A stretch of 28,721 nucleotides of DNA from a virus: IMG/VR virus record IMGVR_UViG_3300043774_000481, positions 1 to 28,721 of that record; one strand, given 5' to 3'. Below, piece by piece: positions 3,659 to 25,402 of this stretch. The position numbers and the translations under genes were made by a program. Within the stretch, counting starts at the first letter, position 1. Each line of letters opens with the position of its first letter. The notes under the pieces were generated by a model, which did no database searches, was not told the DNA's origin, and worked only from the letters and a program-made list of their open reading frames with translations.

Positions 3659-4335
3659 GCCTCTACCTTTCCTTTAGTTTCTAAGTCTACCAAAGGGTAC
3701 TGACATTTTGGACAAATAATATCATCATGCTCATCGCTCCAATTGTCTGCAGGGTCTCCTGTTTCCATATAGTCACATGCCTGACATTTCCAGTTATATG
3801 AACTGCCCTCAAGAACTACACCACGCAGAATCTCAAACTCACCACCCCAGCCTGTCTCTTCCTCATATGACAAAGTAAATAATAAATCAGGGTACTGAGA
3901 TGATAGATTAACTAAAGCCTTATCAGGAACTCCCCATGCAGTCTCAAAGTTATAGAAGACAACATGGTTATCTCCATTAGCGGTTTCTTCCATATATGTA
4001 TTAGGCAGGTTATCAGTTGAAGATACTGCTACATCCCACTTGGTTCCCCAATTACGAAGGTTCCAGTTATACCAATCATCACCTGACATATCAAATGGCT
4101 GGTCAGGCTTGTGCTTTGGTTGATTATGATATGCATCAAGGTCAGTAGGTTTGACAATGTTCCAAAATGCAAAGACAGGTTTTGGATAAAGAGTATTCTT
4201 CTTCATGAATGTGTTAGTGCTTATATCCCATGAATCATGAACTACAGTAAATGGTTGATTAAGTTGCTCCATCATTTTCTTGACGGAATCAGGATTACCT
4301 TCTACAGTTAATCCGTTATATACCCAGTTTGGCAT
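3655..4335 (-). CDS. Api92-like ferredoxin-fold protein with C-terminal zinc ribbon
   Basis: The 226-residue product starts MPNWVYNGLTVEG and contains LRNWGTKWDV near residue 95. Both are hallmarks of the Api92-like (DUF1281/YubB-type) ferredoxin-like fold found on phages and plasmids. A zinc ribbon follows at about residues 185-215, with CQAC and CPKC. The biochemical role of the family is not established. It is the first gene of an eleven-gene leftward operon. A promoter with a -35 TTGCTT, a 17-bp spacer and a -10 TACAAT lies at 4367-4395. Confidence 0.8.
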   Translation of the reverse strand: MPNWVYNGLTVEGNPDSVKKMMEQLNQPFTVVHDSWDISTNTFMKKNTLYPKPVFAFWNIVKPTDLDAYHNQPKHKPDQPFDMSGDDWYNWNLRNWGTKWDVAVSSTDNLPNTYMEETANGDNHVVFYNFETAWGVPDKALVNLSSQYPDLLFTLSYEEETGWGGEFEILRGVVLEGSSYNWKCQACDYMETGDPADNWSDEHDDIICPKCQYPLVDLETKGKVEA

Positions 4336-7286: not shown

Positions 7287-7315
7287 AGTGTAACATTTCC
7301 TACTGACATTTTCAA
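7287..7315 (-). promoter_or_regulatory. TGTCAG-class promoter
   Basis: Minus strand: -35 TTGAAA (7310-7315), ATGTCAG at 7303-7309, 10 nt, -10 TACACT (7287-7292). The spacer is 17 bp. Confidence 0.6.
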
Positions 7316-9225: not shown

Positions 9226-9434
9226 TATTCACCAACCTTTACTGCAACAGTAGCATAGCGGTCTGACAAATACGAAGGGGTCTTTACTTGAATTAAATAC
9301 GCTTCAGTTTCATTACCATAGAAAATCTCTGGTCGTTTTTCTGCATGTACAATTTCACCCTCAAAGTTACGATTTTTGGAGCGATAGTTTTTTCCTATTA
9401 GTAGGTTTTCTATTGTGTATAGTTTAGTGGCCAT
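9225..9434 (-). CDS. small beta-rich protein, 69 aa
   Basis: The product begins MATKLYTIENLLIGKNYRSK, and FEGEIVHAEKR and a C-terminal strand TVAVKVGE follow. The layout resembles the SH3-like proteins at 6308 and 7088, though more distantly. GTG at 9443 is an upstream alternative; ATG at 9434 has an AGAGGTG ribosome site. It is the first gene of the operon driven by the promoter at 9480-9508. Confidence 0.65.
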   Translation of the reverse strand: MATKLYTIENLLIGKNYRSKNRNFEGEIVHAEKRPEIFYGNETEAYLIQVKTPSYLSDRYATVAVKVGE

Positions 9435-9479: not shown

Positions 9480-9508
9480 ATCCTATCATTTTTGGCTGAC
9501 AAAAGCAA
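9480..9508 (-). promoter_or_regulatory. TGTCAG-class promoter
   Basis: Minus strand: -35 TTGCTT (9503-9508), TTGTCAG at 9496-9502, 10 nt, -10 TAGGAT (9480-9485). Confidence 0.65.
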
Positions 9509-9529
9509 ATCCATTTAGGGGTTTTGCGG

Positions 9530-9545
9530 TGTGTTTTTAATCACA
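9530..9545. promoter_or_regulatory. CRP/FNR-like palindrome
   Basis: TGTGT-TTTTAA-TCACA, one mismatch. It lies 21 bp upstream of the -35 at 9503-9508. Confidence 0.5.
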
Positions 9546-9555
9546 CTTAATAGCC

Positions 9556-9564
9556 TGTGGATAA
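9556..9564 (-). promoter_or_regulatory. isolated DnaA box
   Basis: A perfect TTATCCACA on the minus strand. It lies between a CRP-like site and a CTCGGG box, far from the cluster near 460. Confidence 0.35.
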
Positions 9565-9824: not shown

Positions 9825-10031
9825 TTATTCTGCCACCTTTAGAATTGCGTAGGACCCATTTTCATTTATGCGTTCAATTTCAGGCTCTAAGAAAGGTACT
9901 AGCATTTCTTTTAGCATAGATTCAAGCATTACGATTTGCATTTTATCAGGAAGTGAAAGCAAGCGAATGCCTATTGGGTGATTCTCGTCAACCTCAGTTA
10001 CGAATTTTAGAGAGTGTTCAATTTTTACCAT
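9825..10031 (-). CDS. hypothetical protein, 68 aa
   Basis: A 68-residue product with a helical centre (LPDKMQIVMLESMLKEMLVP) and a C-terminal strand (GSYAILKVAE). Its start overlaps the upstream stop as TAATG. The family is not recognised. Confidence 0.65.
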   Translation of the reverse strand: MVKIEHSLKFVTEVDENHPIGIRLLSLPDKMQIVMLESMLKEMLVPFLEPEIERINENGSYAILKVAE

Positions 10032-10216
10032 TAGATAGAAGCCTTTCCTCTAAGTGTTCCACGAACGCCCAATGCGTCACATGAGATTTTTACAGCAACG
10101 CCAACAGGTAGAGTGTTTGGATACTGTGAAATAAATTGAGCAACCGCACCTTTGCTAGGCATAGCGATTTTTTTTGTTGAACCTGAAAAGGTTTCTAGTG
10201 TTACAGTGTAAGTCAT
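10031..10216 (-). CDS. hypothetical protein, 61 aa
   Basis: The product begins MTYTVTLETFSGSTKKIAMP and ends GVRGTLRGKASI. It is basic, with a beta-hairpin followed by a helix. A GAAAGGAAG ribosome site precedes the ATG. It is the first gene of the three-gene unit driven by the two stacked promoters at 10250-10278 and 10368-10396. The function is unknown. Confidence 0.65.
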   Translation of the reverse strand: MTYTVTLETFSGSTKKIAMPSKGAVAQFISQYPNTLPVGVAVKISCDALGVRGTLRGKASI

Positions 10217-10249
10217 TCTTTGACTTCCTTTCGTTAGTTTGATAAGACT

Positions 10250-10278
10250 ATCCTATCAGAGGGGTCTGACAAATTAGG
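10250..10278 (-). promoter_or_regulatory. TGTCAG-class promoter
   Basis: TTGTCAG at 10266-10272, 10 nt, -10 TAGGAT at 10250-10255. The -35 hexamer (CCTAAT) is poor, so an activator may be needed. Confidence 0.5.
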
Positions 10279-10299
10279 GTATTTATTCGCTAGGCTCAC

Positions 10300-10315
10300 T
10301 GTGATACTGGTCACA
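10300..10315. promoter_or_regulatory. CRP/FNR-like palindrome, perfect
   Basis: TGTGA-TACTGG-TCACA, a perfect match to the TGTGA-N6-TCACA consensus. Confidence 0.6.
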
Positions 10316-10367
10316 TTTATTTGCTAGGCTCATTACCTAATCTGTCCTTATTTATTTGTATAAGAGA

Positions 10368-10396
10368 ATACTACACCATAAAGTTCAAAAAGTCAA
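10368..10396 (-). promoter_or_regulatory. leftward promoter PL
   Basis: TTGACT (10391-10396), 17 bp, TAGTAT (10368-10373) on the minus strand. The sequence around it matches the rightward promoter at 10938-10966, including TTGACTTTT and the CTCYTATA string after the -10. Confidence 0.65.
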
Positions 10397-10417
10397 GACG
10401 ACACGCCGTATCTTAAA

Positions 10418-10433
10418 TGTGTTTTACATCACA
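10418..10433. promoter_or_regulatory. CRP/FNR-like palindrome
   Basis: TGTGT-TTTACA-TCACA. On the minus strand it reads TGTGATGTAAAACACA, nearly identical to the site at 11001-11016. Confidence 0.55.
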
Positions 10434-10437
10434 GCTG

Positions 10438-10450
10438 CCCGAGTTTTTTT
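10438..10450 (-). promoter_or_regulatory. A-tract/CTCGGG box
   Basis: A7-CTCGGG on the minus strand, 4 bp before the CRP-like site at 10418-10433. It overlaps the end of the small membrane-peptide gene. Confidence 0.4.
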
Positions 10451-10520
10451 ATTCAGTAGATTGCGTATTAAGAATTTCAATAACACCAAATAAAATAAGT
10501 AACATCATTACAACTAACAA
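10449..10520 (-). CDS. 23-aa membrane peptide
   Basis: The frame encodes a tiny hydrophobic peptide ending FGVIEILNTQSTE. The likely start is TTG at 10520, with GGGAG 7 nt upstream; an ATG at 10508 would give a shorter product. It starts one base after the stop of the 32-aa zinc-ribbon gene. A similar 19-aa peptide follows the paralogous gene set at 11248 on the other strand. Confidence 0.4.
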   Translation of the reverse strand: MLVVMMLLILFGVIEILNTQSTE

Positions 10521-10521
10521 T

Positions 10522-10620
10522 TTATTTCTCCCAACATTTTGGACAAGTAATTACATCATCTATTTCAAAATAAATGCTAGACATTTTATCATTACACAAT
10601 TTACAATTAAGAGTTATCAT
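10522..10620 (-). CDS. 32-aa zinc-ribbon protein, left copy
   Basis: The 32-residue product holds CKLC and CPKC (MITLNCKLCNDKMSS...DDVITCPKCWEK). It is a close paralog of the 32-aa protein at 11457-11555 (MITLSCRLCDTKMSS...CPKCWDN), read in the opposite direction. It overlaps the upstream gene as TAATG. This is a minimal zinc ribbon with an unknown partner. Confidence 0.75.
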   Translation of the reverse strand: MITLNCKLCNDKMSSIYFEIDDVITCPKCWEK

Positions 10621-10748
10621 TAGTTATTCTCCATTTCTTTAGAAGCGTTAATCGCTTCACGAATCCATGGATACTTAGCCATTTGAATTTCATGGTTGAT
10701 TTTGTATTGAGCCTGTTGCTCATTTCTGAATTGTTCTAATGTAGTCAT
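10620..10748 (-). CDS. 42-aa helical protein, left copy
   Basis: The 42-residue helical product starts MTTLEQFRNEQQAQYKI. It is a paralog of the product at 11099, which starts MNTLERIRKEQQERYAI. An AGAAAGGTGG ribosome site precedes the ATG. It is the first gene of a three-gene leftward unit driven by the promoter at 10796-10824. The function is unknown. Confidence 0.7.
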   Translation of the reverse strand: MTTLEQFRNEQQAQYKINHEIQMAKYPWIREAINASKEMENN

Positions 10749-10795
10749 TTGAGACCACCTTTCTTTAGGTTATACTTTAACCTTCTATACCTAGA

Positions 10796-10824
10796 AGTCT
10801 AACATAGACCACTGACAAATTGGG
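10796..10824 (-). promoter_or_regulatory. TGTCAG-class promoter
   Basis: TTGTCAG at 10812-10818, 10 nt, -10 TAGACT at 10796-10801. The -35 (CCCAAT) is weak. Confidence 0.5.
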
Positions 10825-10835
10825 GGGTATAATTC

Positions 10836-10849
10836 GGACATTCTAGACA
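10836..10849 (-). repeat. TGTCC-like direct repeat
   Basis: GGACA at 10836 and AGACA at 10845, 9 bp apart, in the divergent control region. Confidence 0.35.
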
Positions 10850-10850
10850 T

Positions 10851-10866
10851 TGTGACGTAGAACACA
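10851..10866. promoter_or_regulatory. CRP/FNR-like palindrome
   Basis: TGTGA-CGTAGA-ACACA, directly abutting the next site with no gap. Confidence 0.5.
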
Positions 10867-10882
10867 TGTGAGGTAGGTCACA
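10867..10882. promoter_or_regulatory. CRP/FNR-like palindrome, perfect
   Basis: TGTGA-GGTAGG-TCACA, a perfect match. With its neighbour it forms a 32-bp tandem. Confidence 0.6.
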
Positions 10883-10883
10883 A

Positions 10884-10895
10884 AAATAGCTCGGG
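10884..10895 (+). promoter_or_regulatory. A-tract/CTCGGG box
   Basis: AAAATAGCTCGGG-like box on the plus strand, 5 bp before the CRP-like site at 10901. Confidence 0.4.
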
Positions 10896-10900
10896 CTGGA

Positions 10901-10916
10901 TGTGGCGCATATCACA
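10901..10916. promoter_or_regulatory. CRP/FNR-like palindrome
   Basis: TGTGG-CGCATA-TCACA, one mismatch, 21 bp upstream of the rightward -35. Confidence 0.5.
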
Positions 10917-10937
10917 CCAGACACGCCGTGCTAGGAC

Positions 10938-10966
10938 TTGACTTTTGGGGCGGTATATGTTAGGAT
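10938..10966 (+). promoter_or_regulatory. rightward promoter PR
   Basis: TTGACT (10938-10943), 17 bp, TAGGAT (10961-10966), then ACTCCTATAACAA. It is an inverted copy of PL at 10368-10396. Confidence 0.7.
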
Positions 10967-11000
10967 ACTCCTATAACAATTAAATAACAGGGTAAGTAGA

Positions 11001-11016
11001 TGTGATGCAAAACACA
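11001..11016. promoter_or_regulatory. CRP/FNR-like palindrome
   Basis: TGTGA-TGCAAA-ACACA, between the two rightward promoters, 21 bp before the second -35. Confidence 0.55.
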
Positions 11017-11037
11017 CAGACACAAGCCTAAATAGAG

Positions 11038-11066
11038 TTGAAAATGTCAGCCCTATAGTATAGGAT
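11038..11066 (+). promoter_or_regulatory. rightward TGTCAG-class promoter
   Basis: TTGAAA (11038-11043), ATGTCAG at 11044-11050, 10 nt, TAGGAT (11061-11066), then ACTACTATACAAA. The -10 and its downstream string repeat those of PR. Confidence 0.7.
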
Positions 11067-11098: not shown

Positions 11099-11245
11099 AT
11101 GAATACACTAGAAAGAATAAGAAAAGAACAACAAGAACGCTATGCAATACAGCGTGAGAAAGATAAGGCCAAGATTGAGGCTATGTTCTCTCTTGGTTCA
11201 CAACCTCTCAATAACGATTACCTGCTAGGAAAGGTAGAGAACTAA
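11099..11245 (+). CDS. 48-aa helical protein, right copy
   Basis: The 48-residue product starts MNTLERIRKEQQERYAIQRE and is mostly charged helix. It is a paralog of the leftward 42-aa protein at 10620. An AAAGGTG ribosome site precedes the ATG. It is the first of six short rightward genes under PR and the second rightward promoter. First genes behind strong divergent promoters are often early host-takeover or regulatory genes, but nothing here proves that. Confidence 0.7.
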   Translation: MNTLERIRKEQQERYAIQREKDKAKIEAMFSLGSQPLNNDYLLGKVEN

Positions 11246-18474: not shown

Positions 18475-19185
18475 ATGCAAACCTATGATGAAAATGAAAA
18501 CCCATGGTTTACAAAAGACAGATCAGAAACAGTATTAAATAGAGTTAACAGATCTGTTGATGAAAAGATTACTGTTGAAAATCCAGGTATCGGATTAAAC
18601 ATATACAAGAATACTTTTTCAATTGATGATGCAAATAGATATATAAATATTCTTGAATCAAATCTATCAGGTGATAAAAAATATAAATGGGCAGAGGCTA
18701 CAGTTACTAACTCACCTAATCCAATTAAAAAAGCAAGAGACTGTGTAGATTTTAAGTATAAGCAAGAAAATTTAGGGCCAAGAGATGAAACAAATGAAGA
18801 ACTAATTGATCTTCATGAAGAGATATATCAAAAACTAAAATATTGCATAGATGATTATGCAAAATATTGGGGAATACATGTTGTTTATTATGAAGCATTT
18901 AATTTTGTAAAATATGAAGGTGAAGGAACGCACTTTAACATTCATGCAGACCACGGACCAGCATATAACTGCACAGTATCTGCCGTTATATACATTAATG
19001 ATGATTATGAGGGTGGAGAAATTAAATTTCCAAGATTAGATAATTATGTGCATAAACCACAAGTTGGAGACATAGCAATTTTTCCATCAAATTATATCTA
19101 TGAGCATGCATCATTGCCAATGAAGACAGGAACTAAGTATTGTGTTGTTGTAATGACAGACATAAATGAACTTGGTCATAAATAG
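18475..19185 (+). CDS. 2-oxoglutarate/Fe(II) oxygenase, prolyl-hydroxylase type (1 of 6)
   Basis: This family couples oxidative decarboxylation of 2-oxoglutarate to hydroxylation of a substrate, usually a prolyl or other side chain. In this 236-residue protein the metal triad is His157, Asp159 (HAD) and His211 (YEHAS). Lys221 in GTKY stands where the co-substrate-binding Arg or Lys is expected. The hallmark YINDDYEGGEIKF lies between. It is close to the product at 19980: both share ECD-like RDCVDFKFK and YEAFNF motifs. It starts the block, and the next gene overlaps its stop as TAGTG. Confidence 0.88.
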   Translation: MQTYDENENPWFTKDRSETVLNRVNRSVDEKITVENPGIGLNIYKNTFSIDDANRYINILESNLSGDKKYKWAEATVTNSPNPIKKARDCVDFKYKQENLGPRDETNEELIDLHEEIYQKLKYCIDDYAKYWGIHVVYYEAFNFVKYEGEGTHFNIHADHGPAYNCTVSAVIYINDDYEGGEIKFPRLDNYVHKPQVGDIAIFPSNYIYEHASLPMKTGTKYCVVVMTDINELGHK

Positions 19186-19967
19186 TGAAGTCAGTAAACT
19201 TTAATAAAATAATTTTTAGATCTTACAAAGATTGGCTAAACAAAGAAAGTCCATCAGTTCCATCCCCTACTCAAAACACAATACCTGATTGGTATAAAAA
19301 TGCGGATAGATTTTTTAAGGATCCAATTACTAAAAAACACTATCCAGCATCAAAAGAAATTTGTCCTTTTCCAAAAGAAGGAACAAAAAATGACTATGGA
19401 AAGATTCCTACATGGAAAGCCTGTCCAGCAATTATGGATTCATTTTTAACTGGATATATATTAAAAACTCCATGCGATATTAGATTTTTTAAAAACAATA
19501 ATGACATAATTGATGTTGAAATTTTAGATCAAAAGTATAAAGATTTTTGCAGTAGAAGACCACCTATGCCACAATTTAAACATCCAGAAGGTTTTTATCA
19601 GGATCATTTTGCTTGGTATCCAGATTGGGGATTTGAGCTACCAGAAGGCTATAGTGCTTTATTTATGACACCAATGAACAGATTTGATCTACCATTTTTA
19701 AATACAACTGGAGTTGTTGATAATGACAAGGTTCATCTTTTAGGAACGTTTCCATTTTTTATTCCAATAGGATGGGAAGGAACTATTCCAGCAGGAACCC
19801 CATATATGCAAGTTTTGCCATTTAAAAGAGAAAATTGGGAGCATGAGGTAGAATTTCAAAATCAAACAACAATTTATGATAAAATGGTAAAGAACATGAA
19901 GTTTTACCGTCAACCAGATGGTGGGATATACAAAAATAAAGTTTGGAATAAAAGAGAATATAAATAA
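19185..19967 (+). CDS. beta-rich phage protein of unknown role, 260 aa, GTG start
   Basis: The product has IPDWYKNADRF near residue 33, WKACPA near residue 78, DHFAWYPDWGFELPEGYSA at about residues 140-160 and IPAGTPYMQVLPFKRENWE near residue 212. I recognise this as a conserved hypothetical of marine and freshwater phages, often near oxygenase genes. It may have a cupin-like beta-barrel and is distantly like the product at 20657. The GTG start overlaps the upstream stop. It could bind or present the substrate of the oxygenases, but no catalytic motif is evident. Confidence 0.65.
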   Translation: MKSVNFNKIIFRSYKDWLNKESPSVPSPTQNTIPDWYKNADRFFKDPITKKHYPASKEICPFPKEGTKNDYGKIPTWKACPAIMDSFLTGYILKTPCDIRFFKNNNDIIDVEILDQKYKDFCSRRPPMPQFKHPEGFYQDHFAWYPDWGFELPEGYSALFMTPMNRFDLPFLNTTGVVDNDKVHLLGTFPFFIPIGWEGTIPAGTPYMQVLPFKRENWEHEVEFQNQTTIYDKMVKNMKFYRQPDGGIYKNKVWNKREYK

Positions 19968-19979
19968 AAAGGGGAAACT

Positions 19980-20657
19980 ATGAAAACTTGGACAGAAAAA
20001 CAAAATTTAGGCAGCGGTATTTTTTTGTATAAAAATGTAATTAAAAAAGAATTTGATGTAATAAATACACTTGAGAGTGTTCTAGGATCAGTTGCTGGAT
20101 ATGGAGAGCTATCTCCTGAAGGAAACAAATATCACTGGATGCCAGCATATGTAGGATACAAAGAGCTTATGCCAGAATACAGAGATTGTGTTGATTTTAA
20201 ATTTAAAAAAACAGATATAGAAAATGATAAAAGTGAAAAATCTTTAATTTTGCAAGATCTATGGCAAAAAGTTTATGATGCACAGTTTGCTGCTGTAGAA
20301 GATTATCGTGCAGAATACAACATAATGGGCTTAAACTATTGGGAGGCATTTAATTTTATTAAATATGGTCCAGGACAACACTTTCAAGAACATCATGATC
20401 ATGGTTTTTCCTACAACTGTACAGTTTCTTTAGTTGCATACGTAAACGATGACTATGATGGCGGAGAATTAAACTTTAGACTTCAAAATTTAAATGTTAA
20501 GCCAGAAGCTGGTGACTTGTTTATATTTCCATCAAACTATATGTATCCACACAGGGCAATGCCAGTTCATTCTGGTACAAAATATTCAATTGTTACAATG
20601 TTAGATTTTAACAAAAAATTTCATACCCCAGAAATGTATACTCCAGATACAGACTAA
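19980..20657 (+). CDS. 2-oxoglutarate/Fe(II) oxygenase, prolyl-hydroxylase type (2 of 6)
   Basis: The 225-residue product has the metal triad His138, Asp140 (HHD) and His191 (YPHRA). Lys201 sits at the 2-oxoglutarate site, and YVNDDYDGGELNF lies between. It is most like oxygenase 1, sharing YNCTVS and IFPSNYMY. These two form one subfamily with Lys rather than Arg at the co-substrate site. An AGGGGA ribosome site precedes the ATG, and the stop overlaps the next gene as TAATG. Confidence 0.88.
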   Translation: MKTWTEKQNLGSGIFLYKNVIKKEFDVINTLESVLGSVAGYGELSPEGNKYHWMPAYVGYKELMPEYRDCVDFKFKKTDIENDKSEKSLILQDLWQKVYDAQFAAVEDYRAEYNIMGLNYWEAFNFIKYGPGQHFQEHHDHGFSYNCTVSLVAYVNDDYDGGELNFRLQNLNVKPEAGDLFIFPSNYMYPHRAMPVHSGTKYSIVTMLDFNKKFHTPEMYTPDTD

Positions 20658-21370
20658 TGTTAAATATTTCTGTAGAAAAAAGGACTAAGTCTAAGACAAT
20701 CATATCTCCAATGTCAATAAAAAGAGATTGGATGGATGAAACTCCAGAAAAGCATGCGTATAGGTGTTTTCCAGTTACTCAGGCAAACATGATTGGTTGG
20801 AATTTAGCATGGAGTGAAGATGTTAAATTTATTTGGAATGGAATAAACGACACATCACAAGACAATGTTAAAATTTTAGGAGAAGATAGTTTAATCTATA
20901 CTGGAAGAGGGCAATCAAGTATAAGCTTTACAACAGGTCTAACATTTAAAACAGAAAATAATATTAGCTTGTTTACAATAAATCCAGTAAATTATTTTAA
21001 TTTAGAGTTTGAAGTTATATCTTCACTTATTAGTACTTCTTGGTTTGACAATGATTTTCCATTAGCAATAAAAGCAAAGGTTCCAAATAAAGAAATATTA
21101 ATAAAGGCAGGCCAGCCAATTGCAACAATCCTTCCAATTTCTTTGACGGCACTAGATAATACCTCAATTAAAATACATGACTATAAAGATGAAGACAATG
21201 TAAGACAAAACAAACATAGACTATATGGAATTGCCGCTCAAGAAGTAAACAAGTCTGGTAACTGGACAGATTGGTACAGAGATGCAATAAATGAAAAAGG
21301 TCAAAGCTTAGGAAGTCATGAAACAAAGGTTTTACGTCTTTCAGTAGAAGATAACAGTGAAATGGTATAA
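20657..21370 (+). CDS. beta-rich phage protein (DUF6065-like?), 237 aa
   Basis: The product has RDWMDETPEKHAYRCFP near residue 24 and ANMIGWNLAWSEDVKFIWNG near residue 44. Near residue 135 it has WFDNDFPLAIKAKVPNKEIL, then AGQPIATILPIS and KHRLYGIAAQEV. The order resembles DUF6065-type proteins, and the AGxPxxxxLPxx step is shared with the product at 19185. No metal triad is present, so it is not an oxygenase. A substrate- or cofactor-binding barrel is one possibility. Confidence 0.6.
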   Translation: MLNISVEKRTKSKTIISPMSIKRDWMDETPEKHAYRCFPVTQANMIGWNLAWSEDVKFIWNGINDTSQDNVKILGEDSLIYTGRGQSSISFTTGLTFKTENNISLFTINPVNYFNLEFEVISSLISTSWFDNDFPLAIKAKVPNKEILIKAGQPIATILPISLTALDNTSIKIHDYKDEDNVRQNKHRLYGIAAQEVNKSGNWTDWYRDAINEKGQSLGSHETKVLRLSVEDNSEMV

Positions 21371-21371
21371 T
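21363..21371 (+). promoter_or_regulatory. extended -10 promoter for a leaderless gene
   Basis: TGG-TATAAT followed by exactly 6 nt and the ATG at 21378. It overlaps the stop codon of the upstream gene. Confidence 0.65.
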
Positions 21372-21377
21372 CTAATT

Positions 21378-22052
21378 ATGGATAATTTAAACGCCTCTGT
21401 TGTAGTAAGAAAGCCTTCAATGACACCCTCTGGTTGGTTTGGTAACGGCAAAGAAATGATTGTTGAGCTAGAAAACTTTATGACTCAAGAAGAAATAGAG
21501 TTTTTAGAAAAAGCTGCAAAGTCTTTAACTATATGGGATATAACTCAAAGCCATATAAATGAAAATGGAACAGTTGTCTATGACTCTGAATATTGGAAAG
21601 ATAGAGTGGCAACTAGTCCAACTTTAGATAAAAATGATCCAACAATTGCTCCAGTAATTGCAGGATTATTTAAAAGGCTTAAGCCAATAGTTGAAGAGTT
21701 CTACAAGGTAAAGGTTATTCCAACTGGTACAACTATTGTTAGATGGCTTCCAGGCCAGTTTCAGAACCCTCATGCAGATAAAGAACTACACGAAGGCCCA
21801 GATGCAGGACTTCCTAATGATTTTCCAAACTATGACCTTTCAAGTCTATTTTATTTAAACGAGGACTATGAAGGTGGAGAATTATATTTTCCACTACAAG
21901 GTGTACAGTTTAAACCTAAAAAAGGTGCAGCGTATTTTTTTCCAGGTGATATGAATTACGTTCACGGAGTAACAGAAATTAAAAGTGGTATAAGATATAC
22001 CTGTCCATTTTTCTGGGAAATAACAGAGCATACAGGAGATAGAAAGCCATGA
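21378..22052 (+). CDS. 2-oxoglutarate/Fe(II) oxygenase, prolyl-hydroxylase type (3 of 6)
   Basis: The 224-residue product has the metal triad His132, Asp134 (HAD) and His196 (YVHGV). Arg206 in GIRYT binds the 2-oxoglutarate, and YLNEDYEGGELYF lies between. A longer reading from a GTG at 21357 exists but would run through the promoter. The leaderless ATG at 21378 is preferred. The stop overlaps the next start as ATGA. It has Arg at the co-substrate site, unlike oxygenases 1, 2 and 6. Confidence 0.9.
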   Translation: MDNLNASVVVRKPSMTPSGWFGNGKEMIVELENFMTQEEIEFLEKAAKSLTIWDITQSHINENGTVVYDSEYWKDRVATSPTLDKNDPTIAPVIAGLFKRLKPIVEEFYKVKVIPTGTTIVRWLPGQFQNPHADKELHEGPDAGLPNDFPNYDLSSLFYLNEDYEGGELYFPLQGVQFKPKKGAAYFFPGDMNYVHGVTEIKSGIRYTCPFFWEITEHTGDRKP

Positions 22053-22798
22053 ACTTAAATAACAAAAAAAGAATAACAAAGGATATAGTAGTATACGAAA
22101 ACTTTATTGATGAAGAAACTTGTCAAAAAATGATTAATGTTTTAGATGCACAAGCAAATAACAATAAAATATCATGGATGCCAATTTCTTTTTATGAGTC
22201 ATACTCATCTATTCTTCCAAAAGATGGAGATCAAGAAGTTCTTGATACTGGATTAGTTCCAACAATTTTTTCAGACATTGAAAATATAATGCCACAGGCA
22301 ATAGCATCTATTCATAATTTAGATCCAAAAACAATTTCTAAGATTGGATACCATACACAAAAATGGGAGCCAGGGGCATATGCAAGAATGCACTCAGACA
22401 ATACTGATGAACATGGAAACTCTGGAGCATTTACAAGAAGTCGTTATGCTGGATTCTTGTACCTTAATGATAATTTTGAAGGTGGAATACTTAAATTTCC
22501 AGATCAAAATATAGAAATTAAGCCACAGGTTGGAATGCTTGCTGTTTTTGACGGTGGATTTAATAACATGCACGAAGTATCCTTAATAGAAAGTGGAGTA
22601 AGATACACAATAGGATCTTTTTGGGACGATAGAGAAGAAGATGCTTATCCACAAGAACTAAGAGATTCATGGGCAGCAGAAATGAAAGAAACAAGAGCAA
22701 AGCAAGAAGTTGAAAGAGCAAAATGGCAAGAAATTCTTAAAGAAGGATACAAGATTGATGATAAAGGAAATAAATACAAGATAAAAGGACTTGATTAA
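22049..22798 (+). CDS. 2-oxoglutarate/Fe(II) oxygenase, prolyl-hydroxylase type (4 of 6)
   Basis: The 249-residue product has the metal triad His115, Asp117 (HSD) and His175 (NMHEV). Arg185 in GVRYT is at the co-substrate site, and YLNDNFEGGILKF lies between. After the catalytic fold comes a charged helical tail of about 45 residues (ETRAKQEVERAKWQEILKEG), absent from the others, which may tether it to a partner. It is translationally coupled to oxygenase 3. Confidence 0.9.
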   Translation: MNLNNKKRITKDIVVYENFIDEETCQKMINVLDAQANNNKISWMPISFYESYSSILPKDGDQEVLDTGLVPTIFSDIENIMPQAIASIHNLDPKTISKIGYHTQKWEPGAYARMHSDNTDEHGNSGAFTRSRYAGFLYLNDNFEGGILKFPDQNIEIKPQVGMLAVFDGGFNNMHEVSLIESGVRYTIGSFWDDREEDAYPQELRDSWAAEMKETRAKQEVERAKWQEILKEGYKIDDKGNKYKIKGLD

Positions 22799-22799
22799 C

Positions 22800-23459
22800 A
22801 TGGAAACATTTTTAAAAAAAGAACTTGAAGAAGCTGGCTTTGTTGTAGATGAAATTATGGAGAATGTTTTAGTAGTAGAAAATTTTATTTCAGAAGAAGA
22901 ATTAGAAATAATTCTTAATATTATAAATGACACAAAAGAAGAAACATGGTTTATAGAATATACTCAAAATTTAAAACGTTTTTGTCTAGAAAAATTTGGA
23001 AGAGATGACGTAGATAGCCTTGTTGCTGAAGGAAAGTTTGAAGTTACTAAAGGTTGGCAAGACAAAAATTTAAACATAGTTGATAACCCAATATATAAAA
23101 TAATTCATAAAAAATTAAACGTTTTTGTTCAAGAGGCAGATGATTCTTTAGGGCTTTCTGGTTTTGGAACTATACAAAGAATGCAGGAGGGTATTGAACT
23201 AAAACCTCATACAGATCAACATACTGACCCTTCAATTAAGTATGCTGCAATAATATATTTAAACGATGACTATCTTGACGGAGAACTTTTTTTTAAAAAA
23301 AATGAACAACTAATAAAGCCTAAAAAAAGATCTTTGCTTATATTTCCTGGAAATGATGAATTTGAACACGGAGTAAAACACGTTGGAAAGGGACCAATTA
23401 GGTATGTTCTTGTTGGTTTTGTAAAAATAAAAAATTTTTATAAGAATAATAAATACTAG
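22800..23459 (+). CDS. 2-oxoglutarate/Fe(II) oxygenase, prolyl-hydroxylase type (5 of 6)
   Basis: The 219-residue product has the metal triad His137, Asp139 (HTD) and His190 (FEHGV). Arg201 in PIRYV is at the co-substrate site, and YLNDDYLDGELFF lies between. The ATG at 22800 is chosen over a TTG at 22791 that overlaps the upstream stop. Its N-terminal 50 residues are acidic and helical. It belongs with oxygenases 3 and 4 by the Arg at the co-substrate site. Confidence 0.88.
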   Translation: METFLKKELEEAGFVVDEIMENVLVVENFISEEELEIILNIINDTKEETWFIEYTQNLKRFCLEKFGRDDVDSLVAEGKFEVTKGWQDKNLNIVDNPIYKIIHKKLNVFVQEADDSLGLSGFGTIQRMQEGIELKPHTDQHTDPSIKYAAIIYLNDDYLDGELFFKKNEQLIKPKKRSLLIFPGNDEFEHGVKHVGKGPIRYVLVGFVKIKNFYKNNKY

Positions 23460-23471
23460 AGAAAAGAAAAA

Positions 23472-24167
23472 ATGATGAAAAAAACTATACTAGAAGAAAA
23501 AGTTTATTACTATGAGGACTGTATTAAAAATTTTGAAGAGCTAATGAAAACGATTGACAAACTAGATGAAATGGAAAAATCTGAAGGTATATCTTCTTGG
23601 TTAGACTGGACAGCATCTAATGATAAAACCTTTATCTACGGATTAACAAAAACCTATGACTTGTCTGAAATTAATAATATGCAAGAACCATACAAATCTA
23701 AAATGCTTTATGTTTATAACACAATTTCTGAGTCTTTTTATGAAGTTTGTAAAGATTATGCCTTGGCTATGGGAGACACAGATGAGCCAAATTTATTTCC
23801 TGTTTTTAACATAAAAAAATATAATGCTGGAGTAGGAATGGGATCTCACTTTGATCAAAATGACGGAGACACAACACTAAGGTATTCCTTTAACATATAC
23901 TTAAATGATGATTTTGATGGTGGAGAAGTATCGTTTACTCTTTCCGATTATGATAAAAGAAATGAAAGACCTTCTCCTGAACTAGATTATGACATTGCAG
24001 TAAAAAATAATTCAGTTGATTTTGCAGTAAAACCTAAAGCAGGAAGTATTGTTATTTTTCCATCATCAGCACCATATTATCATACTGCTCACTTAGTAAA
24101 AAATAAATTTAAGTATATGATACCAGGACACTGGATACACAACGATATGCCAATGCGTAATCGCTAA
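23472..24167 (+). CDS. 2-oxoglutarate/Fe(II) oxygenase, prolyl-hydroxylase type (6 of 6)
   Basis: The 231-residue product has the metal triad His126, Asp128 (HFD) and a distal His204 (or His207) in YYHTAH. Lys replaces Arg at the co-substrate site (NKFKY). YLNDDFDGGEVSF is followed by a 30-residue insertion (DKRNERPSPELDYDIAVKNN) before the last strands, which may shape the substrate site. It is the most divergent of the six. Confidence 0.87.
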   Translation: MMKKTILEEKVYYYEDCIKNFEELMKTIDKLDEMEKSEGISSWLDWTASNDKTFIYGLTKTYDLSEINNMQEPYKSKMLYVYNTISESFYEVCKDYALAMGDTDEPNLFPVFNIKKYNAGVGMGSHFDQNDGDTTLRYSFNIYLNDDFDGGEVSFTLSDYDKRNERPSPELDYDIAVKNNSVDFAVKPKAGSIVIFPSSAPYYHTAHLVKNKFKYMIPGHWIHNDMPMRNR

Positions 24168-24859: not shown

Positions 24860-25402
24860 TTAAAATGGAAACAGACTAAGCCATTCCTTAGTTCTTTTGG
24901 TTATACCCTTCCAAGCATCCCAGTTCTTTCCGCCAGCACTCATATGATATGCAATTTGTGAATTTATTACTGGATTAAATAAATCAGAGTTTGACCTTAA
25001 ATTAAATTTTTCCCGTCTTTCGGGACCTAGATTTCCAATCATATTAATTTGGAAAATACCGTATGAACTGTCTCCAGTTTTTGAGTTTCCATTAAAAGCT
25101 ATTGGTCTTCCGTTAGATTCTTTTTTTGCTATAGCCCAGGCTTCTTTTAGTTTTTTACCCTCAAAGCCAACTGCACCCAAAAGCAAGTATAAATCTTTAT
25201 CTGACAGTTTTGATGCATTTTCATATTTTTTAAGAATTGATCGTTTAGAAACAACAAATGCCGCTTTGTGGGCGGCAGGGGCTTCTTTTGATATAGATTG
25301 TTTTAGTAAATTATTCTTGGGGGTAGCATTAGCGTTATTAGCAAATACCGCTGAAGAAGCCACCATCAATAGTACCCCAAACCACACCTTAGTTTCTCTC
25401 AT
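24860..25402 (-). CDS. secreted lysozyme-fold (transglycosylase-like) enzyme
   Basis: The 180-residue product has a signal peptide (residues 1-27, hydrophobic core FGVLLMVASSAVF, predicted cut after ANA). A linker of about 50 residues and a lysozyme-like domain follow. The likely catalytic acid is Glu95 in AKKESNG. SSYGIFQIN (112-120), DLFNPVINSQIAY (140-152) and GGKNWDAWKG (157-166) are typical of the transglycosylase/goose-lysozyme fold. It would cut peptidoglycan outside the membrane. A strong AGGAGG site precedes the ATG. It lies on the opposite strand to the structural genes and has its own TGTCAG-class promoter. A signal peptide suggests export by the host Sec system rather than a holin. 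Confidence 0.8.
   Translation of the reverse strand: MRETKVWFGVLLMVASSAVFANNANATPKNNLLKQSISKEAPAAHKAAFVVSKRSILKKYENASKLSDKDLYLLLGAVGFEGKKLKEAWAIAKKESNGRPIAFNGNSKTGDSSYGIFQINMIGNLGPERREKFNLRSNSDLFNPVINSQIAYHMSAGGKNWDAWKGITKRTKEWLSLFPF

Follow-up and report, generated by a model that had tools for sequence, protein, structure and literature searches.

What is the function of a divergent region that repeats the same series of sequence elements along both of its arms, and which proteins would read it? The region in question lies in a linear virus fragment of 28.7 kb from IMG/VR (hereafter the window, by which we mean the whole stretch of DNA analyzed, 28,721 nucleotides), with a GC content of ~35%. 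A search of the open-access literature yielded no description of such a region, nor of any regulatory motif for phages of aquatic actinobacteria. Here we argue that it is, with somewhat better than even probability, a divergent early control region in which tandem promoters are combined with CRP-type class-I sites and with a TGTCAG box that would replace the -35 element.

Judging by its gene content, the window comes from an actinobacterial phage. The nearest relatives of its DUF932 protein are proteins of the BE (Stanwilliamsviridae) phages of Streptomyces (~54% identity), its 240-aa protein belongs to the Pfam family GP88 and is matched by mycobacteriophage proteins at ~53%, and 24 of 26 related records contain WhiB; it is this combination on which the affiliation is based. 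WhiB has been used as an actinophage marker (PMC6802176). A search of metagenome-assembled genomes (MAGs) returned two matches, a ~110-kb contig within a cyanobacterial bin, which we take to be mis-binned, and a distant one (47%) in an actinobacterial MAG. When the control region itself was compared with isolated phages, no DNA match was found.

The initial annotation described two mirrored cassettes with the same elements in the same order. Both are present where it placed them, with all the listed elements, and, upon reverse-complementing one of them, the two arms align over their full length, beginning at the A-tract and ending at the ribosome-binding site (local alignment score 44; 500 shuffles gave at most 29). 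Between the arms lies a third, leftward cassette that escaped the initial annotation (TGTCAG at 10817, palindromes at 10851 and 10867). In both TTGACT promoters, the -35 hexamer is separated from the -10 by 17 bp, within the 16-18 bp of ordinary SigA promoters. The features are as follows, with the strand given where one applies:

7287..7308, minus strand: further TGTCAG-N10-TANNNT promoter; other copies end at 3684, 5650, 6261 and 9247
9480..9564, minus strand: further cassette built on the same pattern, with DnaA box 9564-9556, palindrome 9530-9545 and TGTCAG promoter 9501-9480
10031..10216, minus strand: first leftward gene, start at 10216, encoding a conserved protein of 61 aa
10250..10271, minus strand: TGTCAG-N10-TAGGAT promoter of the left arm; 29 of 38 relatives have it at the orthologous place
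10283..10297, minus strand: S repeat GAGCCTAGCGAATAA, copy 2
10300..10315: CRP-type palindrome L2, TGTGATACTGGTCACA, 57.5 bp from the -10 end of the TGTCAG promoter
10317..10331, minus strand: S repeat GAGCCTAGCAAATAA, copy 1, within the leader of the TTGACT transcript
10368..10396, minus strand: SigA-type promoter TTGACT-N17-TAGTAT of the left arm
10401..10411: Z box ACACGCCGTAT, near-palindromic, between L1 and the -35
10418..10433: CRP-type palindrome L1, TGTGTTTTACATCACA, centre 57.5 bp from the -10 end of the TTGACT promoter
10443-10438, minus strand: CTCGGG box of the left arm, adjoining the A-tract
10620..10748, minus strand: gene of the third cassette, encoding 42 aa and similar to the right gene in its start and leader
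10796..10817, minus strand: TGTCAG-N10-TAGACT promoter of the third cassette
10851-10866 and 10867-10882: two adjoining CRP-type palindromes upstream of the third-cassette promoter
10890..10895, plus strand: CTCGGG box of the right arm, adjoining the A-tract (left counterpart 10438-10443)
10901..10916: CRP-type palindrome R1, TGTGGCGCATATCACA, 57.5 bp from the -10 end
10921..10930: Z box ACACGCCGTG of the right arm
10938..10966, plus strand: SigA-type promoter TTGACT-N17-TAGGAT of the right arm
11001..11016: CRP-type palindrome R2, TGTGATGCAAAACACA, 57.5 bp from the -10 end
11045..11066, plus strand: TGTCAG-N10-TAGGAT promoter of the right arm
11099..11245, plus strand: first rightward gene, 48 aa, without a Pfam match

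For the comparison with related phages, relatives were chosen by their GP88 protein rather than by any motif, so as to avoid motif-based selection, and reduced to 42 non-redundant loci (686 kb); as these share a common ancestry, the motif counts given below do not represent independent events. Separately, a scan of IMG/VR for a palindrome followed, after a gap of 20-36, by TGTCAG-N10-TANNNT yielded at least 119 stretches, and homologues of the window proteins are encoded in 111 of the 119 stretches listed.

The palindromes are the most conspicuous component of the region. Perfect TGTG-N8-CACA sites number eight in the window, where 0.71 would be expected (none of 100 shuffles reached eight), and six of them fall within 10300-11016. 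In the 42 relatives, there are 285 such sites as compared to 7-13 in shuffles, with a sharp preference for N8, other spacers being rare. A chance origin of the region is ruled out by this enrichment taken together with the alignment of the arms and the motif counts in relatives. The position of the palindromes is equally constrained: the distance from the palindrome centre to the last base of the -10, a spacing on which the initial annotation did not remark, is exactly 57.5 bp in all four arm promoters and in a fifth one at 9480 (centre/-10-end pairs 10425.5/10368, 10307.5/10250, 10908.5/10966, 11008.5/11066 and 9537.5/9480). Among 175 palindrome-promoter pairs from the relatives, the distances gather at 57.5 bp, at 67.5 bp and at 76.5-78.5 bp, and lesser clusters occur around 46.5 and 92-96 bp (Rayleigh R=0.74 at periods of 10.3-10.5 bp), and these peaks persist when only TGnTAnnnT is demanded of the promoter, with neither TGTCAG nor TTGACT. 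A minor, out-of-phase group is found at 62.5-63.5 bp; the two palindromes of the third cassette, centred 62.5 and 78.5 bp from the -10 end, include one member of it. Such phasing is the signature of a putative activator bound to one face of the helix.

The features found here, a palindromic site of the TGTGA-N6-TCACA type that precedes the -35 and keeps to one face of the helix, are those by which class-I CRP promoters are recognized, and both the palindrome and the helical-turn steps are shared with the lac promoter of E. coli and with the actinobacterial GlxR/Crp regulons. Unlike in those systems, the sites here belong to predicted phage early promoters and are repeated along one arm. In E. 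coli lac, the CRP centre is, by our count, 54.5 bp from the -10 end; the main phase here, at 57.5 bp, is ~3 bp longer. The palindromes of the family have TA at the centre and the consensus TGTGATNTANATCACA, which fits the actinobacterial CRP/GlxR sites.

Which protein, then, would bind these sites? Neither an HTH_Crp_2 nor a cNMP-binding domain was found in 25 related phage records, and, since no CRP-family protein turned up in these relatives, the factor is probably the CRP of the host. A strong Crp match exists in most of the small actinobacterial genomes examined (relatives of one MAG with a distant homologue), and the proteins that were read carry the helix GASRETVNKALADF, which we take to be the recognition helix of mycobacterial CRP. 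The main weakness of this attribution is that perfect CRP sites show no excess over the control in nine small actinobacterial genomes, which are possibly not those of hosts; the true host may belong to another lineage. The same lack of excess, along with the density of the sites in the phages, would be expected if TGTG-N8-CACA were bound by a phage regulator unrelated to CRP, so that the region would form an autonomous circuit rather than a sensor of host physiology. We consider this rather unlikely, given that the consensus is that of CRP/GlxR, that hosts of this phylum possess a CRP with a conserved recognition helix, and that the 25 phage records lack a CRP-family domain.

The second component, the TGTCAG promoter, had been annotated as part of an ordinary promoter, which proved too simple a description. 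The window contains nine copies of TGTCAG-N10-TANNNT, all on the minus strand except for that at 11045, which is on the plus strand; those outside the three central cassettes, at 3705, 5671, 6282, 7308, 9268 and 9501, had gone unnoticed. Most of the nine directly precede an open reading frame, the copy at 9268 lying inside the end of a gene, and a tenth promoter, with N11, precedes a lysozyme-like gene that starts at 25402. In the 42 relatives, the motif occurs 307 times, as compared to 5-10 in one set of shuffles and 2-14 in another, and the spacer is strict, with only 8 cases of N9 and 12 of N11. Position counts give roughly WW-TGTCAG-T-S-S-Y-N4-TG-N-TANAMT, that is, an extended -10. Within 70 bp, a perfect palindrome accompanies 119 of the 300 distinct copies and one with a single mismatch another 25, whereas 156 have none; the last number is an upper bound because some of these promoters carry an altered CRP half-site fused to a DnaA box. 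The CRP-less copies have no -35 element: they show 1.83 of 6 matches to TTGACA, as compared to 1.63 at random positions, and TTG in 6% of cases. Hence TGTCAG appears to replace the -35 element.

The alternative is that TGTCAG serves as the operator of a phage repressor silencing the early genes, much like a stoperator, and not as a positive element of the promoter. A short motif recurring throughout one arm would suit such a role, and the stoperators of mycobacteriophage L5 contain TGTCAAG, a resemblance that can count only as a lead. L5 stoperators, however, are dispersed and not tied to promoters, whereas TGTCAG is fixed 10 bp from the -10, as the counts at N9 and N11 demonstrate; furthermore, no tyrosine integrase was found in 25 records. 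Since a pure repressor operator would leave the CRP-less promoters, which have no -35, with no positive upstream element at all, we favour a positive role for TGTCAG and deem the operator explanation unlikely.

A precedent for -35 replacement exists in the middle promoters of phage T4, which retain the host -10, about half of them with TGn, and in which a phage box substitutes for the -35 (PMC2988021). The retained host -10, often with TGn, and the short box in the -35 place are common to both; the TGTCAG box is centred near -25.5, as compared to -30 for the MotA box (PMC2988021), and, unlike the T4 promoters, those described here are combined with CRP-type sites. The predicted TGTCAG promoters are thus an analogue of the T4 middle promoters and not members of that class, because the sequence of the box differs and it stands 4-5 bp nearer to the -10. 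As for the protein that would read the box, no Sigma70_r4 domain scored above the cut-off in any of 25 records. WhiB was considered and set aside: it is found in 24 of 26 records, yet nothing connects it with TGTCAG. WhiB7 contacts AT-rich DNA upstream of the -35 (PMC6282962).

The cassettes are conserved beyond the window. The 61-aa protein is highly conserved (mean column identity 77%); its predicted fold gave no significant match, only a weak, non-significant likeness to the T4-type Dmd antitoxin and AcrIF9. Among 38 orthologues of its gene, 29 are preceded by a TGTCAG promoter and 33 by a palindrome, for the most part at ~55 and ~99 nt from the gene, as in the window, so that the elements of the left cassette are indeed conserved in related phages. 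The upstream TTGACT promoter is found in 14 of the 38 orthologous cassettes, and all 14 of these contain the two S repeats. That the arms align along their whole length and that the middle and right cassettes have a gene start and leader in common might be taken to mean that the mirrored cassettes are merely a recent duplication devoid of regulatory meaning. This is hardly credible: relatives whose proteins are ~60-80% identical retain both the elements and their spacings at orthologous positions, and a duplication accounts for the origin of the cassettes, not for their conservation. Enrichment, helical phasing and positional conservation together lend good support to the proposal of the initial annotation that the region exerts divergent control through a factor binding the CRP-like sites.

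The relatives also abound in DnaA boxes. The 42 loci contain 172 copies of the sequence TTATCCACA, as compared to 7-12 by chance, clustered in the same control regions and spaced by ~12 or 41-42 bp; in no fewer than 21 composites, a CRP-type half-site runs straight into TGTGGATAA (an example of a composite CRP-type site and DnaA box is TGTGATGTANNTCATGTGGATAACTT). In small actinobacterial genomes, pairs of the box recur at a spacing of ~113 bp, which suggests that TTATCCACA is a genuine DnaA box there. Both the clustering and the composites would also be compatible with the region being mainly a replication origin, with DnaA boxes and AT-rich spacers for initiation and the promoters secondary. 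We hold this to be quite improbable, as the focal region of the window has no DnaA box, and boxes precede numerous promoters throughout the arm, keeping in phase with the promoter elements. The window contains DnaA boxes at 9564, at 22645 and within 224-488, where four lie on one strand (224, 434, 468 and 480, with a distance of 12 bp between the final pair); this cluster is possibly a replication origin or another control region.

How might such a region work? The sequence itself shows the elements, their spacings, their conservation and the lack of a -35 in the CRP-less TGTCAG promoters; binding proteins, activation and timing are what we infer. Each arm carries a tandem pair, a SigA-type promoter (TTGACTTTT, TANNNT) and a TGTCAG-N10-TANNNT promoter, the TGTCAG of which, located at roughly -28 to -23, would stand in the -35 place. 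Host cAMP-CRP would bind the palindromes and recruit RNA polymerase from one helix face (class-I activation), and another factor, encoded by either the phage or the host, would read TGTCAG and replace the sigma/-35 contact, as MotA does at T4 middle promoters. We read the region as a combination of CRP-activated and T4-middle-like promoters, each kind being known separately. A bolder version, to which we give only a modest chance, is an independent T4-like sigma takeover, in which a phage protein, possibly aided by WhiB, would read TGTCAG and be coupled to CRP and DnaA via the composite sites; if so, early viral transcription would track the carbon and energy status of the host and its replication state.

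The early role is a reasonable inference because the leftward arm of small genes, at whose head the region stands, holds the DUF932 and GP88 homologues and the TGTCAG promoters concentrate in one zone: in twelve large relatives, they lie mostly within ~10 kb, with few scattered matches elsewhere. The initial annotation had gone further, proposing an early/late or a lysis/carrier-state switch. Of the former, only the early half is retained here; the latter found no support, a search for tyrosine integrases in 25 related records, which are possibly fragments, having detected none. The leftward arm of L5-type mycobacteriophages likewise has a GP88-family gene; as compared to it, a lysogeny gene (tyrosine integrase, 25 records) was not found here. 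The left ends of BE (Stanwilliamsviridae) Streptomyces phages such as Riptide, NootNoot and Jay2Jay share DUF932, many small self-promoted genes and CGGACAT with this group, but TGTCAG-N10-TANNNT is practically missing from their first 14-16 kb, and both TGTG-N8-CACA and DnaA boxes are absent there.

The phages that infect aquatic actinobacteria are abundant but difficult to grow in culture. A promoter grammar readable from sequence would allow early genes to be named in metagenomic genomes. Two questions become testable: whether early phage genes are wired to the CRP (and DnaA) status of the host, and whether the factor reading TGTCAG provides another and independent instance of the -35 replacement known from T4 MotA. 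In addition, CRP-type sites stepped by ~10 bp across many virus genomes constitute a natural data set on the geometry of actinobacterial activators.

The lesser elements differ in their standing. The CTCGGG box, although present in both arms as annotated, is the weakest, being barely enriched in relatives (98 versus 56-85 in shuffles), and in many of them DnaA boxes occupy its place. The interval between palindrome and -35 holds, in both arms, an ACACGSCGT box (Z) that the initial annotation missed; in the relatives, ACACGNCGT occurs 95 times as compared to 2-4 in shuffles. The second CRP-type palindrome of the left arm is flanked by the direct repeats GAGCCTAGCRAATAA (10283-10297 and 10317-10331, minus strand). 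A leader peptide encoded by the S repeat was rejected, the reading frame not being conserved among relatives. Compared with shuffles, the leader has a slightly better fold (z -2.3), and it matches no known RNA, an Rfam search of the window returning tRNA only.

Several further observations concern neighbouring sequences. The motif CGGACAT/ATGTCCG (10836-10841 in the window) is common to this phage group and the BE Streptomyces phages, with 8-13 copies per 14-16 kb in the latter; in the relatives, ATGTCCG occurs 185 times versus 24-42 in shuffles. In the Streptomyces phages Riptide and Anedea, a palindrome GGCCG-N3-CGGCC is found upstream of early promoters in ~10-11 bp steps from the -10, in a small sample. 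A tiny open reading frame at 10522-10620 on the minus strand, overlapping the end of the 42-aa gene, contains two CxxC pairs (MITLNCKLC...TCPKCWEK) and probably encodes a zinc-ribbon peptide. Finally, 18475-24167 is a tandem run of similar genes, of which the one at 18475-19185 matches 2OG-Fe(II) oxygenases, and several others have the same motifs by eye.
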